Origin: Pseudomonadota bacterium
GTDB lineage: Bacteria > Desulfobacterota > Syntrophia > Syntrophales > JADFWA01
Length of the DNA: 5,403 bases
Direction: 5' to 3'
Assembly: GCA_030610915.1 (NCBI GenBank)
Contig: JAUWQS010000144.1
Span: 1 to 5,403, forward strand
This document shows positions 1 to 5,293 of the stretch, piece after piece. Each line of letters opens with the position of its first letter. Position 1 is the first letter of the stretch. Below the pieces are notes generated by a model. It worked only from the letters and a program-made list of their open reading frames with translations, was not told the DNA's origin and did not search any database. A program made the translations under genes and the position numbers.

Positions 1-504
1 GAGATACATAGCGATTCGTTCGATTCCATAGGTTATTTCAGCGCATACAGGATTCAGATCTATACCTCCCACCTGCTGAAAGTAGGTAAACTGGGTTATT
101 TCCATCCCGTCGAGCCAGACCTCCCATCCCAAACCCCAGGCACCCAGAGTGGGAGATTCCCAGTCATCTTCTACAAAGCGTATGTCATGATCAAGTGTGT
201 TTACTCCGAAGCTTCTCAGCGAATCAAGGTAGATATCCTGTATGTCAAGTGGTGACGGCTTCATGATAACCTGATACTGGTAATAGTGCTGGAGTCTATT
301 CGGATTCTCTCCGTACCTGCCGTCAGTGGGTCTACGGGAAGGCTCAACATATGCGACATTCCATGGTTCCGGGCCGAGAGTCCTGAGAAAGGTTGCGGGA
401 TTGAATGTCCCTGCTCCTACCTCAATATCATATGGCTGCTGGATAATGCATCCCTGATCTGCCCAGTATTTTTCAAGGGCAAATATCAATTCCTGAAATG
501 TCAC
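1..504 (-). CDS. glyQ: Glycyl-tRNA synthetase alpha subunit, N-terminal part (cut by window edge)
   Basis: This is the catalytic alpha subunit of the alpha2-beta2 bacterial glycyl-tRNA synthetase, a cytoplasmic class II enzyme that charges tRNA-Gly with glycine using ATP. The 168 codons visible align by eye along their whole length with the E. coli protein. Landmarks are [10 protein letters not shown] near residue 17, [11 protein letters not shown] near 29, [19 protein letters not shown] at 54-72, the class II segment [13 protein letters not shown] at 73-85, [18 protein letters not shown], and [16 protein letters not shown] near the edge. The family is about 290-300 residues, so about 57% is present and the rest, probably followed by glyS, lies to the left. 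The start is the GTG at 504-502, chosen because homology begins there and a strong Shine-Dalgarno sequence lies directly upstream. No ATG is available at the N-terminus. It is separated from recO by a repeat-filled gap, so an independent promoter is likely. Identification is secure. Confidence 0.97.
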
Positions 505-1089: not shown

Positions 1090-1878
1090 TCAAATCCCCA
1101 TTTCTTTGATCTGTTTGAGCACATTTAGAGATTTCAGCTCCTTTCCCAGAATATGCCGGATGAAGCGGTTAAGGATCTCTCTGATCTCGAATGCGGCTTG
1201 TTCAGAAAGTCTCAATCGGTCAATCTTGTCAATCCCCATCTTTTCCCCCATGAGGAGTGTCTTGATTGTTCCAAGGGAAACCGGAAATGAGTCCCGATTG
1301 TTGAAGCTGCACCTGGGACATTTTATCCCCCCGTCGGCCGGATTGAACATAAAGGACATATCGCAATACGCACTTAGGTCGTCAACGGGTGTCCTGCAGG
1401 CAGTGCACCTATCTAAGACCGGCTCAAATCCTGTAAGTTTCAGCAACTGTAATTCAAAGAGACTCATCATTGTCTCTGAACCGTTTCCGGTCTCAAGAAG
1501 TCCAAGAAAATCATGCAACAATTGAAACAAGTTCCGGTTTTTTTTGCCTTCCCTTGTAAACTGATTAACAAGATCAACAAAATAGGATGCGATAAGAGTC
1601 CCTTCCATATCTGATCTGATGCCGGAATAATAGTTTGTCACGTCACAACCTTCAACCAGTGCGAGTCCTCCTCTTCTGCTCCTGGAAAAGAGAATATTGG
1701 AGCAGGAAAACAATTCAAAGGCGTTAGGGAATCTCTTTTTGCTGCGCCTGGCTCCCTTTGCAATCCCCTTCAGCTTGCCGAAATTATCTGTATAGAAGGT
1801 TATAATCCTGTCAGATTCTTCATAATCCAGAGAACGGAGAACGATAGCAGAAGCCTTATTGCTGGTTCTCGGAATCAT
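1090..1878 (-). CDS. recO: DNA repair protein RecO
   Basis: RecO is the cytoplasmic mediator that, with RecR and RecF, loads RecA onto SSB-coated single-stranded DNA and can anneal strands, in gap repair by homologous recombination. The 262-residue product has the usual family length. Residues about 6-80 form the N-terminal OB fold, with AIVLRSLDYEESDRIITFYT and GKLKGIAKGARRSKKRF as typical strands. A helical region follows. A zinc ribbon is completed by Cys158-x2-Cys161 and Cys187-x2-Cys190, with another Cys at 172. The C-terminal helices contain FIRHILGKELKSL. The ATG at 1878-1876 is chosen because the OB fold begins a few residues later. The ribosome site before it is weak (TTAAAGAT). Neighbours are mgtE 470 bases upstream and glyQ 585 bases downstream, so it is probably transcribed alone. 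Nothing in the protein looks damaged. Confidence 0.96.
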   Translation of the reverse strand: MIPRTSNKASAIVLRSLDYEESDRIITFYTDNFGKLKGIAKGARRSKKRFPNAFELFSCSNILFSRSRRGGLALVEGCDVTNYYSGIRSDMEGTLIASYFVDLVNQFTREGKKNRNLFQLLHDFLGLLETGNGSETMMSLFELQLLKLTGFEPVLDRCTACRTPVDDLSAYCDMSFMFNPADGGIKCPRCSFNNRDSFPVSLGTIKTLLMGEKMGIDKIDRLRLSEQAAFEIREILNRFIRHILGKELKSLNVLKQIKEMGI

Positions 1879-1893
1879 ATCTTTAACTGCTCA

Positions 1894-1914
1894 GGTTCAC
1901 GGTTCAAGTTCGTA
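1894..1914. repeat. Short heptad run (GGTTCAC)
   Basis: GGTTCAC, GGTTCAA and a diverged GTTCGTA follow each other at seven-base spacing. The motif GGTTCA has an inverted partner, TGAACC, at 2339-2344, directly beside the mgtE stop codon. It is the outermost layer of the mirrored block, though at six bases it is not significant on its own. Confidence 0.4.
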
Positions 1915-1931
1915 GGGTTGATTAAGGAGCG
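1912..1931 (+). repeat. Diverged copy of the GTAGGGT-GATTAAG repeat
   Basis: GTAGGGTTGATTAAG followed by GAGCG matches, with few differences, the complement of 2313-2334, which reads GTAGGGTGGATTAAG then CGAAGCG. The two copies are inverted about the centre of the gap. The left copy has lost the far hairpin arm seen on the right. Confidence 0.6.
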
Positions 1932-1932
1932 T

Positions 1933-1974
1933 AATAATGTAAATATTAAATTTTAAAATGAAAAACGTAAAATG
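1933..1974 (-). repeat. AT-rich heptad array, left arm
   Basis: Read on the minus strand from 1974, the units are CATTTTA, CGTTTTT, CATTTTA, AAATTTA, ATATTTA and CATTATT, with exact seven-base spacing. The CATTTTA-like units correspond to the plus-strand array at 2255-2303, so the two arrays are inverted relative to each other. Low complexity weakens the comparison, but the shared period and unit are clear. Confidence 0.5.
1943..1971 (-). promoter_or_regulatory. Possible recO promoter inside the AT-rich heptads
   Basis: On the minus strand TTTACG (1971-1966) and TAATAT (1948-1943) are separated by 17 bases. Each matches the sigma-70 consensus at four of six positions. Transcription would begin near 1936, giving recO a leader of nearly 60 bases. 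AT-rich sequence produces such matches easily, so this is tentative. Confidence 0.2.
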
Positions 1975-2011
1975 CAGACCTTGTCAAGTGGTCGAGTGGT
2001 CAAGTAGTTGG
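1975..2011 (+). repeat. CAGACC-octamer element, copy 1 (diverged, plus orientation)
   Basis: The copy starts CAGACCTTGTCAAGTG and contains the octamers GTCAAGTG (1983-1990), GTCGAGTG (1991-1998) and GTCAAGTA (1999-2006). It aligns base for base, with scattered substitutions, to the complement of 2190-2235. It therefore forms an imperfect terminal inverted repeat with that copy around the interval 2012-2189. Confidence 0.65.
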
Positions 2012-2027
2012 TATTATTCAAGTTATG

Positions 2028-2158
2028 AAGTGCCTAAAGTGAGCTAAAGTTAAGGAATGGACGTATCGGCGCTGCCAATTCCAGAGGTGAATTAATGGAG
2101 CGAAGCAACTCCTTTAACTTTAGGCACTTTAATATACTTTAGCTCACTTTAGGCACTT
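2028..2158. repeat. Perfect 23 bp inverted repeat built from 9-10 bp units
   Basis: The left arm 2028-2050 (AAGTGCCTAAAGTGAGC...) is the exact complement of the right arm 2136-2158. Both arms are made of units AAGTGCCTA and AAGTGAGCTA. On the complement, the right side continues through AAGTATATTA to a second AAGTGCCTA, so it has five units against three on the left. A second partner (13 bases at 2117-2129) can also pair with 2028-2040, giving alternative folds. The loop, 2051-2135, holds no gene. In RNA or cruciform DNA this is the strongest secondary structure in the window. Confidence 0.85.
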
Positions 2159-2189
2159 ATTTGTGTAATGTATTGAATTGTTGGTGATT

Positions 2190-2235
2190 TTTTCCCACTC
2201 GACTACTTTCCCACTCGACTATTTAACGAGGTCTG
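2190..2235 (-). repeat. CAGACC-octamer element, copy 2 (46 bp, exact duplicate of copy 3)
   Basis: The 46 bases are identical to 3834-3879, in the same orientation, on the opposite side of mgtE. On the minus strand the copy starts CAGACCTCGTTAAATAG and contains the octamer GTCGAGTG twice, 16 bases apart, each followed by GGAAA. It is the inverted partner of the diverged copy at 1975-2011. Confidence 0.9.
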
Positions 2236-2254
2236 AAAATGAAAAAACACCCTG

Positions 2255-2303
2255 CATTTCTCATTTCTCATTTCTCATTTTAGTATTTTCATTTTTCAGT
2301 TTT
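2255..2303 (+). repeat. AT-rich heptad array, right arm
   Basis: Seven consecutive seven-base units read CATTTCT three times perfectly, then CATTTTA, GTATTTT, CATTTTT and CAGTTTT. This is the longest heptad array in the window and mirrors the array at 1933-1974. It lies about 45 bases beyond the mgtE stop codon on the downstream side. Confidence 0.7.
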
Positions 2304-2304
2304 C

Positions 2305-2330
2305 GGTGGATTCGCTTCGCTTAATCCACC
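2305..2330. repeat. GGTGGATT hairpin repeat downstream of mgtE
   Basis: GGTGGATT at 2305-2312 pairs with AATCCACC at 2323-2330 around a ten-base CGCTTCGCTT loop. It ends 18 bases from the mgtE stop codon. In the direction of mgtE transcription it is followed by A-rich rather than U-rich sequence, so it is not a standard terminator. The sequence resembles a palindromic intergenic repeat found in several bacterial groups (recollection, not checked). Confidence 0.65.
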
Positions 2331-2348
2331 CTACACCCTGAACCATAG

Positions 2349-3716
2349 TTATATCAATAATTTCAGAAAGATAGTTGCCAGACCGAGAAAGGACAAAAAT
2401 CCAAAGGCATCTGTCAAGCCGGTAACAAACATATTGGAGCAGAGGGCAGGATCGATTCTCAACCATTTCAAACTCAGAGGTATTAATGTTCCTATCAACG
2501 TGCCCCAAAAAATGTTAATTATCATCGCCAGGCCAAGCACAACGCCCAATACAGGCATGCCTTTCCAGAGATAACCTATGATTCCGGTAACTACACCTAC
2601 TGCCACACCGTTTGATAGACCTACGAATATCTGTGTGTAAAGGACTTTTTTCGAATTTTCAAAGGTTATCTCTCCCAGGGCCAGACCCCTTACGATCAAG
2701 GCAATAGACTGGGCTCCCGCATTTCCGCCAAGCCCTGCCACCACAGGCATAAAGACAACCAGGGCCACCAGCATCTTGATTGTATCTTCAAAAAATCCGA
2801 TCACAAAAGCAGAAAAAGAGGCCGTGAGGAGATTCAGGTAAAGCCACGGCAGCCTTCTTTTTATAGCCTGAGCGGGGTTGCTGAAAACACTATCATCTTC
2901 ACCCAGACCTGCCATCCTGTAAAGGTCTTCTGATGTCTCCTCTTCTATGACATCAACTACGTCATCTACGGTGATCCTTCCTATCAATTTGTCCTCATGA
3001 TCAACAACAGGAAGAGAGACAAGGTCATACTTCCCAAACATTCTGGCAACCTCTTCCTGATCCACATCAACGTGAACGCTCGGCATGTTTTTATCCATGA
3101 CTTCGGACACCGAAATGTTCGGTTTGGTCGTGACGAGTTGTTGGAGAGGCACTGTCCCGATCAGCCTGTTTTCTTTGTCTATAATGAATACATTGTAGAT
3201 GTTTTCAATCTCTTCTGATTCCGATGCCTTGATAACGGCCTGAATGGCATCCCGGATAGTGGCTCCCTCCCGAACAGAGGAAAGTTCCGACTGCATGATG
3301 CCGCCGGCGCTGTCCTCTTTATATTTCAGGAGTTGCTTCACATCCTCGGAATCCTCCGGTTCGATTCCTTCAAGGACAGCCCTGGCCTGCTCATCGGAGA
3401 GATCGGCGATCAGATCGGCGGCGTCATCCGACTTCATTTCATCGACGATCTCGGTCAGTTTTTTGTCGGAGATGTCTTCTAATATCTGTTCCCTGGAAAC
3501 GTCGCTCAACTCCAAAATGACGTCAGAGGCCTTCTCAATATCCAGCAAAGCAAATAGACGGATCTTCTCTTCCTCTCTCAGATGATCGATCAGATCAGCA
3601 ATATCAGCAGGGTGGAGTCGCGTGAAGAGATCGATAATATCGAACTCCCTCTTGAGGTCGATCCACTCCCTCAACTGTTGAAGATATCTTGCTTGCTCCG
3701 TCTTTTCCTTTTTCAT
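2349..3716 (-). CDS. mgtE: Magnesium channel/transporter MgtE
   Basis: MgtE is a homodimeric inner-membrane Mg2+ channel that closes when its cytoplasmic domains bind Mg2+. Co2+ can also permeate some members. The 455-residue length matches the family (450 in Thermus thermophilus). Residues about 25-130 form the acidic helical N domain (LHPADIADLIDHL, SDDAADLIADL). CBS 1 starts near SAGGIMQSE (136-144) and CBS 2 near VSEVMDKNMPSV (203-214), ending at DDVVDVIEEE. The membrane domain, about 287-455, has roughly five helices. It carries VAGLGGNAGAQS (326-337) and the pore helix IDPALCSNMFVTGLTD (421-436), whose Asp436 corresponds to the Mg2+-binding Asp432 of Thermus. The ATG at 3716-3714 has no good ribosome site, which is odd, but there is no better start. 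No M-box or ykkC-type leader is recognisable upstream; a terminator-like hairpin lies there instead. Identification is secure. Confidence 0.97.
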   Translation of the reverse strand: MKKEKTEQARYLQQLREWIDLKREFDIIDLFTRLHPADIADLIDHLREEEKIRLFALLDIEKASDVILELSDVSREQILEDISDKKLTEIVDEMKSDDAADLIADLSDEQARAVLEGIEPEDSEDVKQLLKYKEDSAGGIMQSELSSVREGATIRDAIQAVIKASESEEIENIYNVFIIDKENRLIGTVPLQQLVTTKPNISVSEVMDKNMPSVHVDVDQEEVARMFGKYDLVSLPVVDHEDKLIGRITVDDVVDVIEEETSEDLYRMAGLGEDDSVFSNPAQAIKRRLPWLYLNLLTASFSAFVIGFFEDTIKMLVALVVFMPVVAGLGGNAGAQSIALIVRGLALGEITFENSKKVLYTQIFVGLSNGVAVGVVTGIIGYLWKGMPVLGVVLGLAMIINIFWGTLIGTLIPLSLKWLRIDPALCSNMFVTGLTDAFGFLSFLGLATIFLKLLI

Positions 3717-3736: not shown

Positions 3737-3790
3737 AAAAAAGTGGTCAGTGGTCAGTGGTCAGAAAATACTGTTCACTGACCACTGACC
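3737..3790 (-). terminator. Terminator- or attenuator-like hairpin just upstream of mgtE
   Basis: On the minus strand GGTCAGTGGTCAG (3790-3778) pairs perfectly with CTGACCACTGACC at 3764-3752, or seven bases further on at 3757-3745. The second register is followed by AC and six T (3742-3737). The 13 bp stem plus U-run fits a rho-independent terminator. The U-run ends only 20 bases before the mgtE start codon, leaving no room for a promoter between them. It would therefore either end transcripts arriving from upstream or attenuate mgtE. The heptad repeats could also form such a stem by chance of their sequence. Confidence 0.45.
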
Positions 3791-3805
3791 TTCAGCCTTC
3801 AGCCT
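3743..3805. repeat. Two opposed heptanucleotide arrays
   Basis: GTGGTCA occurs three times in perfect tandem (3743-3763). After seven further bases come CTGTTCA, CTGACCA, CTGACCT, TCAGCCT and TCAGCCT (3771-3805), again at exact seven-base spacing. The second array is the approximate complement of the first, which creates the hairpin. TCAGCC is shared with the CAGCC heptads near 578-591. Confidence 0.75.
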
Positions 3806-3833
3806 AAACAACCTAATGAAATCGTTTGTGGTC

Positions 3834-3879
3834 TTTTCCCACTCGACTACTTTCCCACTCGACTATTTAACGAGGTCTG
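3834..3879 (-). repeat. CAGACC-octamer element, copy 3 (exact 46 bp duplicate)
   Basis: It is identical over 46 bases to 2190-2235 and in the same orientation, starting 1,644 bases further along. The pair brackets mgtE. Bases immediately outside differ, so the match ends sharply on both sides. No inverted partner of this copy was found in its own gap, unlike copy 2. Confidence 0.9.
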
Positions 3880-4066
3880 TAATGATGACGGTTTCGTAAA
3901 AAGCCGAAATTGCTCCCTCTCCCCCGACAGGAGGGTTAGAGTGATGGTGAATAGAAAGTTATTTCACTCACTTACATCCCCCTCCCTTTAATCCCCTTCC
4001 TTTAGGGGAGAAAAGAAATCTGACTTCCAAGTAACTTACACGAAATCGCACCCAGTAAGTGACTAC

Positions 4067-4085
4067 GTCGGGCGAGACGCCCGAC
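4067..4085. repeat. GC-rich hairpin repeat
   Basis: GTCGGGCG (4067-4074) pairs perfectly with CGCCCGAC (4078-4085) around an AGA loop. No U-run follows on either strand. Its form matches dispersed GTCGGGCG...CGCCCGAC palindromes of other genomes (recollection). Confidence 0.6.
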
Positions 4086-4117
4086 CTACTGCGGGGAAAA
4101 ATACCGACCAGCCGCAG

Positions 4118-4603: not shown

Positions 4604-5293
4604 TCATCGATTCATCCCCGTATCATTCAAAACAAATCTTACAGGAACATCGACACGCATGGTTACAGGATACCCCATCCTTCTTGCCGGTTCAAATTTC
4701 CATTTCTTGACCGCCTTCAGAGCTGATCTGTCCAGAATGTTGTGCCCCGATGACTTTTTTGTCTCCAACGCCCCAACACTGCCGTCAACAAGTATCTCCG
4801 CCGAAATCAGCACGACGCCCTCGTACCCTCTCCTGCGGGCAACGGACGGATAGATGGGAGGTGTGTTTTCATTGTACCGCGGCACGGCCATGATCACCTT
4901 TGCCACCTCTGTGCCTTCTCTCGCCGGAGCGGCAGGCGGCGGAGTTGTTGCCCCGATAGACGGAGCGGCGTTTGAAGAAGCCTCAAGTCTCTCCGGTAAA
5001 GGTGATTCTATTATCTCCTTTTTGGGGGATATCGGCCTGCTCCGTTTATCCGGCTTGATTATCTTCCTTTCTTTCCTGACCACTTTCTTTACAGGAGGGA
5101 CCACAGATGGCTTTTTCACCTCCATAGTATCGGCCGTGACCACAGATATCTCAAGATGACCATGTTTTTCTGCCTTAAAACTGAGGGGACGCGGAGCAAT
5201 AAGAGGCATGTGAGTAAAGACAATCCCGGCATGGATGGCCAGCGCAATCATGGCCGCAAAAAGAAAATCCTTTTCAAATGTCACTCTTTCCAT
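4604..5293 (-). CDS. tonB: TonB-family energy-transducing protein
   Basis: TonB spans the periplasm and passes proton-motive energy from the inner-membrane ExbB-ExbD motor to outer-membrane receptors for iron complexes, cobalamin and similar substrates. The 229-residue product has the full architecture. A short cytoplasmic start is followed by one membrane anchor at about 10-30, with His21 at the place of the functionally important TonB anchor histidine. A periplasmic spacer at 57-125 is rich in Lys, Pro and Ala. The C-terminal domain at about 146-222 carries YPSVARRRGYEG, VDGSVGALETKKSSG, LDRSALKAVKKWKFEPA and PVRFVL. The ATG at 5293-5291 directly precedes the anchor and has GGAAA six bases upstream, inside exbD. 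The 13 bp overlap with exbD implies translational coupling. TolA is the main alternative but lacks this C-terminal signature. The transported substrate cannot be read from the sequence. Confidence 0.93.
   Translation of the reverse strand: MERVTFEKDFLFAAMIALAIHAGIVFTHMPLIAPRPLSFKAEKHGHLEISVVTADTMEVKKPSVVPPVKKVVRKERKIIKPDKRSRPISPKKEIIESPLPERLEASSNAAPSIGATTPPPAAPAREGTEVAKVIMAVPRYNENTPPIYPSVARRRGYEGVVLISAEILVDGSVGALETKKSSGHNILDRSALKAVKKWKFEPARRMGYPVTMRVDVPVRFVLNDTGMNR

Follow-up and report, generated by a model that had tools for sequence, protein, structure and literature searches.

The recO-mgtE gap and its mirrored layers

The window, by which we mean the whole 5,403-nucleotide stretch of DNA analysed here, carries glyQ, recO, mgtE and a TonB-like gene, all on the minus strand; database sources give the name RecO to this protein in relatives as well. 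The genes recO and mgtE have the same orientation. Both frames are open, and the 470-bp gap between them consists of five nested element families whose arms mirror each other. From the outside inwards, the layers are called A (the GGTTCA frame), R (the REP pair), H (CATTTTA-like heptads), C (CAGACC octamers) and K (the 23-bp inverted repeat). A scan of a genome collection for MgtE gave seven loci. Genome G001 (isolate CSMAG_486) was among their genomes, and through it we reached a family of four genomes, namely G001, G008, G009 and G010. The features of the window, with counterparts in this family, are as follows.

1-504, minus strand: glyQ, named from its translation
1090-1878, minus strand: recO, a 262-aa open frame whose start codon lies 4 bp from layer A
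1883-1906, plus strand: left end of layer A, TTAACTGCTCAGGTTCACGGTTCA (family end GTAACTACTCAGG); 1884-1906 agree at 22 of 23 bases with three G010 loci, e.g. L091 and L106
1907-1931, plus strand: left half of layer R, the first half of the left REP of a GTAG-tagged pair, cut in the loop; 96% identical over 25 bases to G010 L074 and L104
1932-1974, plus strand: left arm of layer H (CATTTTA-like heptads); 95% identical over 43 bases to G010 L063 and L068
1969-1974, plus strand: left-hand AAAATG of the 6-bp duplication that flanks C
1975-2022, plus strand: left arm of layer C (CAGACC octamer element); 1975-2008 pair with 2202-2235 (82% over 34 bases); 81-83% identical to G010 copies
2028-2158, plus strand: layer K, perfect 23-bp inverted arms at 2028-2050 and 2136-2158, with a core that varies elsewhere; whole-unit relatives in G001, G008 and G009
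2176-2235, plus strand: right arm of layer C; 88% identical over 60 bases to G010 L045 and 92% over 63 bases to window 3820-3882
2236-2241, plus strand: right-hand AAAATG of the 6-bp duplication that flanks C
2236-2298, plus strand: core and right arm of layer H (AAAATGAAAAAACACCCTGCATTTCTC...), continuous with the left arm in nine G010 copies
2299-2334, minus strand: right half of layer R, a complete right REP; 97% identical over 38 bases (2298-2335) to G010 L078 and L079
2339-2352, minus strand: right end of layer A, shortened (TGAACC-ATAGTTAT), compared with the family end by eye; overlaps the mgtE stop codon at 2349-2351
2349-3716, minus strand: mgtE, open frame of 455 aa, named from its translation
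3820-3882, plus strand: additional half copy of layer C, consisting of the right arm; it lies upstream of mgtE in another repeat context
4604-5293, minus strand: TonB-like gene, named from its translation

The original prediction had described five mirrored sequence pairs in this gap, and all of them are present where it placed them, which confirms the nest. The 23-bp arms and the CAGACC arms were equalled in none of 500 dinucleotide shuffles each, while one shuffle of 500 was as good for the GTAGGGT/GATTAAG arms and four of 500 for the heptad arms (two of 300 with a second cut, 1933-1974 versus 2236-2303). Since all 500 shuffles matched GGTTCA, this word alone is uninformative. Whether the outer layers resemble each other more than shuffled sequence does had been put forward as a decisive point, and layers A and R taken together (1879-1932 versus 2304-2348) were equalled in none of 300 shuffles. 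The outer layers gain their credibility as families that are also found elsewhere. An automatic chain search, with cut-offs below which the two outer layers fall, recovered three nested arm pairs in the gap (the heptad, octamer and 23-bp layers) with a score of 44, while 200 shuffles of the gap scored at most 20 with at most two pairs. The minus-strand RNA of the gap, i.e., the transcribed one, folds into one long interrupted hairpin of -161.5 kcal/mol, compared with -94.5 kcal/mol (sd 6.25) for 100 shuffles (z -10.7); the opposite strand reached a z of -8.4 (16 shuffles).

Other parts of the window also carry repeats. The glyQ-recO gap (505-1089) is another mosaic, with AAAGCTC words at about 704-736, a twice-repeated TGTCATTCTGAGGAGC (789-804 and 815-830), an A-like end GTAGCTACTCAGG at 533-545, and a hairpin GCACGGACAAACGAGTTTGTCCATGC at 601-626 that also occurs beside or inside C elements of G010. 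Upstream of mgtE, an inverted GTGGTCA pair (3745-3764 and 3771-3790), CAGCCTT words and the half copy of C lie side by side, not nested, within 3741-3882. Furthermore, CGTCGGGCGAGACGCCCGACCTAC at 4064-4089 looks like a GTAG-tagged palindrome on the minus strand, and locus L001 has a similar GTAGGGTCGGGTTTTACACCCGACC upstream of mgtE.

The layers as separate families and their hosts without inserts

The mgtE-recO junction was compared at nine distinct loci, six with recO after mgtE and three (L004-L006) without recO there. A relative with an empty gap had been named as support for a mobile unit, and the nest is indeed missing from the junction in all six relatives, which are other species, with recO after mgtE. 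G001 and G008 have a 4-bp overlap of the two genes, and the spacing is 7 bp in G009, 31 bp in L002, 40-46 bp in L007 and 54 bp in L003. Therefore, the nest was added to a naturally tight junction. G010 gave a match to neither the MgtE nor the RecO protein. Apart from the window's own protein, the closest RecO matches were P0002 (89%) and P0003 (88%).

The GGTTCA layer turned out to be the end of a longer element, TAACTGCTCAGGTTCACGGTTCA (1884-1906), whose right partner in the window is short (TGAACC-ATAGTTA). The pattern TAACTACTCAGG occurs 51 times in G010, 15 times in G009, nine times in G001, 44 times in G008 and not at all in G002, and the reversed control pattern gave 0, 0, 1, 0 and 0 in the same genomes. 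At up to two mismatches, GTAACTACTCAG ends formed 46 non-redundant inverted pairs (terminal inverted repeats at both ends), some being alternative pairings of one element and some coming from regions chosen for carrying both ends. An 8-bp target duplication (at least seven of eight bases identical) was present at 15 of these 46 pairs, against 0.3 expected from mixed flanks, and there was no comparable excess among the pairs at 3-7 or 9-12 bp. The 15 duplicated elements measure 83-321 bp and have very different interiors. Layer A is thus a real transposon end. The copy in the window is worn, its right end being without some bases, and by eye its ends show no clear 8-bp duplication. Among the loci examined, four A-ended pairs were 700-5000 bp apart, each with at most three of eight flank bases alike. 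The duplicated elements at L149, L172 and L254 contain words such as CCACAGATTCACACAGATGAAC or CTCTGCGTTCTCTG, which we take to resemble repeats of many bacterial phyla.

A transposase partner of layer A was not found, and searches with PF03050 and PF05717 gave no IS66-type protein with A ends. In assemblies that may be incomplete, PF03050, the IS66 transposase, gave one weak match (25 bits) in five genomes, with no A end (at up to two mismatches) in the surrounding 3,022 bases, and PF05717 gave none in four genomes. The weak PF03050 match is a 555-aa frame at 409-2076 of L274 (contig C175 of G001).

Layer R is a GTAG-tagged palindrome in inverted pairs, GTAGGGTGGATTAAG ... CTTAATCCACCCTAC, of which G010 holds eight. 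Seven of these are uninterrupted and the eighth (L108) has a different palindrome in the same spacer, so H lies inside none of them. At C66, C137 and C169 of G010, the REP pair follows a GGTTCA stretch with a nearly identical joining sequence, which indicates that the two-layer composite of A and R has itself multiplied; at C137 both A ends are present, with seven of eight bases duplicated. At the R-H boundary of the window, H begins in the loop of the left REP and stops before the right REP, and about 26 bases of the pair are missing, so that the entry of H into R was not a clean insertion. In G010, six of nine H copies are immediate neighbours of a REP, their orientation being one that the window does not show, and H and REP may therefore have travelled together. 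In the search of the order, which scored no more than four candidates per genome, the right half of R matched G103, G119, G131, G132, G146, G147 and G073, which makes R more widely spread than H and C. Scans of all loci for flank duplications gave no pairs at H ends and ten pairs at R ends, with one 6-bp match (0.1 expected) and no clear peak.

For the insertion of C into H, the host is available without its insert. None of the nine clear H copies among the G010 loci examined contains C, and two degenerate copies are likewise without it; weak H-like matches in G008 reached 83-85%. When C and one AAAATG are removed from the window, the remainder equals G010 L063 with one mismatch in 53 bases, followed by a 14-bp difference in heptad number and then agreement. 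The C element of the window begins with CAGACC, ends with GGTCTG and has AAAATG at both sides, and a 261-bp block with 6-bp flank identity occurs at only two of 5083 window positions, the C site included. As read from these letters, the window is the product that a clean insertion of C into H would be expected to leave, and AAAATG is likely the target duplication of this event. It is likely rather than proven, because it concerns one locus (n = 1) and AAAATG is among the tandem words of H itself, so that slippage could mimic a duplication. The G010 copies of C that were compared have one arm missing or an arm end that is not recognisable, hence the single locus, and a scan of all loci for flank duplications at C ends with four mismatches was swamped by chance pairs (535).

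The interior of C is K in the window and other repeats in C258 of G010; other repeats also adjoin the single right C arms at C249, C25 and window 3820-3882. On contig C114 of G001, words like the C octamers match eight places, one of which (2312-2347) lies inside a predicted gene, and therefore the words alone do not amount to element C. At 847-2356 of L035, which belongs to the same contig, two predicted proteins carry translated C-like octamer words close to the N-terminus (TTRLLDYSTTRLLD, TTRLLDHLTR). It seems that a C-like repeat has entered coding sequence there, in a flagellar-looking cluster.

Layer K has a different distribution. Among the G001 matches to the gap, 52 of 57 pieces are K (the two orientations of a place counted separately, and 40 of the 64 candidates scored), and K also matches G008, G009 and the order members G021, G027, G037 and G103, with variable cores between the arms. 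At E 1e-3, neither H nor R matched any of 36 loci from these K-carrying genomes (G001, G008, G009 and other genomes of the order), C matched only three loci of contig C114, and no A end was situated within 300 bp at any of 32 loci with a K arm. As far as these sequences go, K is independent of the other layers. G010 has one K-like arm, which runs into another repeat beside a C arm between nrnA-like and truB-like genes. This junction, whose genes point in one direction, holds a hybrid mosaic of K, AAAGCTC and C repeats (1087-1253 of L129, in C25), and mgtE-recO is therefore not the sole junction invaded.

Regarding the generality of nesting, gaps were sampled from stretches whose choice followed contig number and took no account of their content. 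Two or more nested arm pairs formed a chain in 4 of 54 gaps of G010, 6 of 61 of G009 and 0 of 52 of G002, compared with 0.2, 0.0 and 0.0 in shuffles. None of these sampled gaps has three nested pairs; the window, which was itself picked as striking, has three. One G010 gap exceeds the window in chain score (46 from a single long pair, against 44), so it is only by its count of nested pairs that the window ranks first. The median fold z-scores were -2.1 in G010 (37 gaps, 7 at or below -4), -1.6 in G009 (43 gaps, 11) and -0.6 in G002 (36 gaps, 4), so that folding alone does not separate the genomes sharply. A search of 149 order genomes, with at most four candidates scored in each, gave matches in 14 genomes, and every match covered just a piece of the gap. 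The anticipated recurrence of one layer order at several loci did not materialise: among the candidates scored (40, or four per genome) in the four family genomes and the 149 order genomes, excluding the window's own, no order beyond two layers was found again.

Probable sequential insertion and the alternative explanations

Combined, these comparisons make it very probable that the gap is a nest of non-autonomous palindromic elements produced by sequential nested insertion. A host version without the insert exists for H without C (nine of nine), for the REP pair without H (eight of eight in G010) and for the junction without the nest (six of six). Of the explanations first offered, the repeated insertion of one repeat into another is thereby upheld by empty sites for the whole gap and for C in H, with weaker support at the other levels.

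In the proposed course, the genes of the ancestral mgtE-recO junction would have overlapped or been some tens of bases apart. The first arrival would be an element with GTAACTACTCAG ends, from a family that transposes with an 8-bp target duplication. This A frame would hold the GTAG-tagged REP pair R, which H would then interrupt. The CAGACC-ended element C would in turn have interrupted H, leaving the 6-bp AAAATG duplication, and the CTAAAGTG element K would occupy the interior of C. The mirror order then arises automatically and needs no special mechanism, because each element inserts between the arms of the previous one. We infer that the layers arrived in this time order, one by one at this site rather than partly pre-assembled. 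Their ends would be recognised by transposases supplied in trans, and the hairpin would now separate recO expression from that of mgtE. Intergenic elements may serve as safe targets, or palindromes as preferred ones.

It is possible, although on the unlikely side, that the nest was built elsewhere and moved to the junction in one transposition of the A frame with the inner layers as cargo. The multiplied A and R composite at C66, C137 and C169, the duplicated copy with both ends at C137, and the 15 duplicated A-ended elements with their very different interiors speak for such a history. Against it, the window itself shows no clear 8-bp duplication, and the order of more than two layers did not recur among the candidates scored. 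The earlier suggestion of a composite non-autonomous mobile element accordingly holds for A and R at three G010 loci but not for a five-layer unit, which was found nowhere else among the candidates scored.

A broader reading, which we consider rather doubtful, is a family-wide modular hairpin system. Short constant ends (GTAACTACTCAG and a few others) would suffice for transposition, interiors would be freely refilled by hairpin elements of 7-10-bp tandem words because elements preferentially land between earlier arms, intergenic regions would grow as nested hairpins, and multi-layer composites would move as units.

Replication template switching between short tandem words could also have built the mirror in place without transposition. 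The arms do consist of 7-10-bp tandem words of variable number, hybrids occur (e.g., K words running into AAAGCTC words at C25 of G010), and bases were lost at the R-H junction. However, the duplication peak of the A ends at 8 bp only and the C-in-H junction look like transposition, which leaves this mechanism improbable. Still less can be said for a conserved regulatory hairpin, such as an attenuator or an mRNA processing site of an mgtE-recO operon. The transcribed strand folds very strongly, but the hairpin is missing in six relatives with the same gene order, the window is without a match in Rfam at gathering scores, and simple scans of 1860-2370 gave no promoter-like or terminator-like site; we regard this as very unlikely.

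A single inverted duplication that decayed from the outside, also among the original suggestions, is hardly tenable, because the layer families occur independently and in different genome sets (H and C are mainly in G010, K is in G001, G008, G009 and elsewhere in the order) and the junctions of six relatives are without the nest. Arm identity does fall outwards as predicted, from 100% in the innermost layer to 82%, then 78%, and short matches outside. The gradient is nevertheless no proof of decay and was rejected as such, since the arms of H and of the REP pair already differ from each other in their G010 copies and the left H arm is 95% identical to G010 over 43 bases.

With nested insertion as the preferred reading, the five-family nest and the empty-site comparisons give a relative insertion order within a bacterial intergenic region. 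They also connect orphan heptamers and octamers with frames whose transposition produces an 8-bp duplication. The junction is shown to tolerate a 470-bp hairpin between its genes, and gaps of such a kind should not be taken for conserved regulatory RNAs.

Comparison with known elements

The ends of layer A invite comparison with IS66-family elements, for which the available part of PMC11946415 gives ends of 20-30 bp starting with GTAAGCG and 8-bp direct repeats. Like elements mobilised by IS66 as described there, the ends of layer A begin with GTAA, are inverted and are accompanied by 8-bp duplications. However, the layer A end continues with CTACTCAG instead of GCG and is about 12 bp long. 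Our literature search found no published mention of this 12-base end.

GTAG-tagged REPs and REP dimers are covered in the accessible portions of PMC3733652 and PMC2817692. The palindrome of layer R resembles the REPs described there in its GTAG tag, its inverted pairing and the outward position of GTAG. Two-layer nests are reported in the same part of PMC3733652, where REP dimers of A. variabilis and H. neapolitanus have inserted into long palindromes. Compared with those dimers, five families of different kinds are nested in the window, where one element encloses the REP pair and another splits it. The term GTAGGGTGG is absent from the main text of PMC3733652 as far as it was available.

Tandem words in small elements have precedents as well. 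The excerpted text of PMC4596501 presents BrickBuilt of Porphyromonas gingivalis as a MITE containing a minisatellite and remarks that IS elements nest in others. Tandem words within an inverted-repeat element are thus shared with the window, but BrickBuilt, as presented in that excerpt, is one family, whereas in the window the tandem words form the inverted arms and several families are stacked. Intergenic heptamers such as TAACTGA in Beggiatoaceae, nearly all direct (169 sets and one indirect), are documented in the available text of PMC4679880. The window has in common with them tandem words of about seven bases between genes; the heptads of layer H, in contrast to those nearly all direct sets, form inverted pairs that frame other elements. 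The cyanobacterial STRR presumably are likewise intergenic tandem words of about seven bases. The Chunjie MITE of Geobacter uraniireducens was inserted into an operon, according to the accessible part of PMC10969869. As far as that description goes, it is similar in being a small palindromic element among genes read one way. Chunjie is said to comprise one family and to show no nesting.

Transposons nested in one another are well known from plants. In the case of bacteria, the open-licence literature searched, mostly as titles and abstract openings, yielded no multi-layer MITE nest of such depth. Each kind of part assembled between recO and mgtE is known, and it is so deep a mixed nest in a bacterium that looks unusual.
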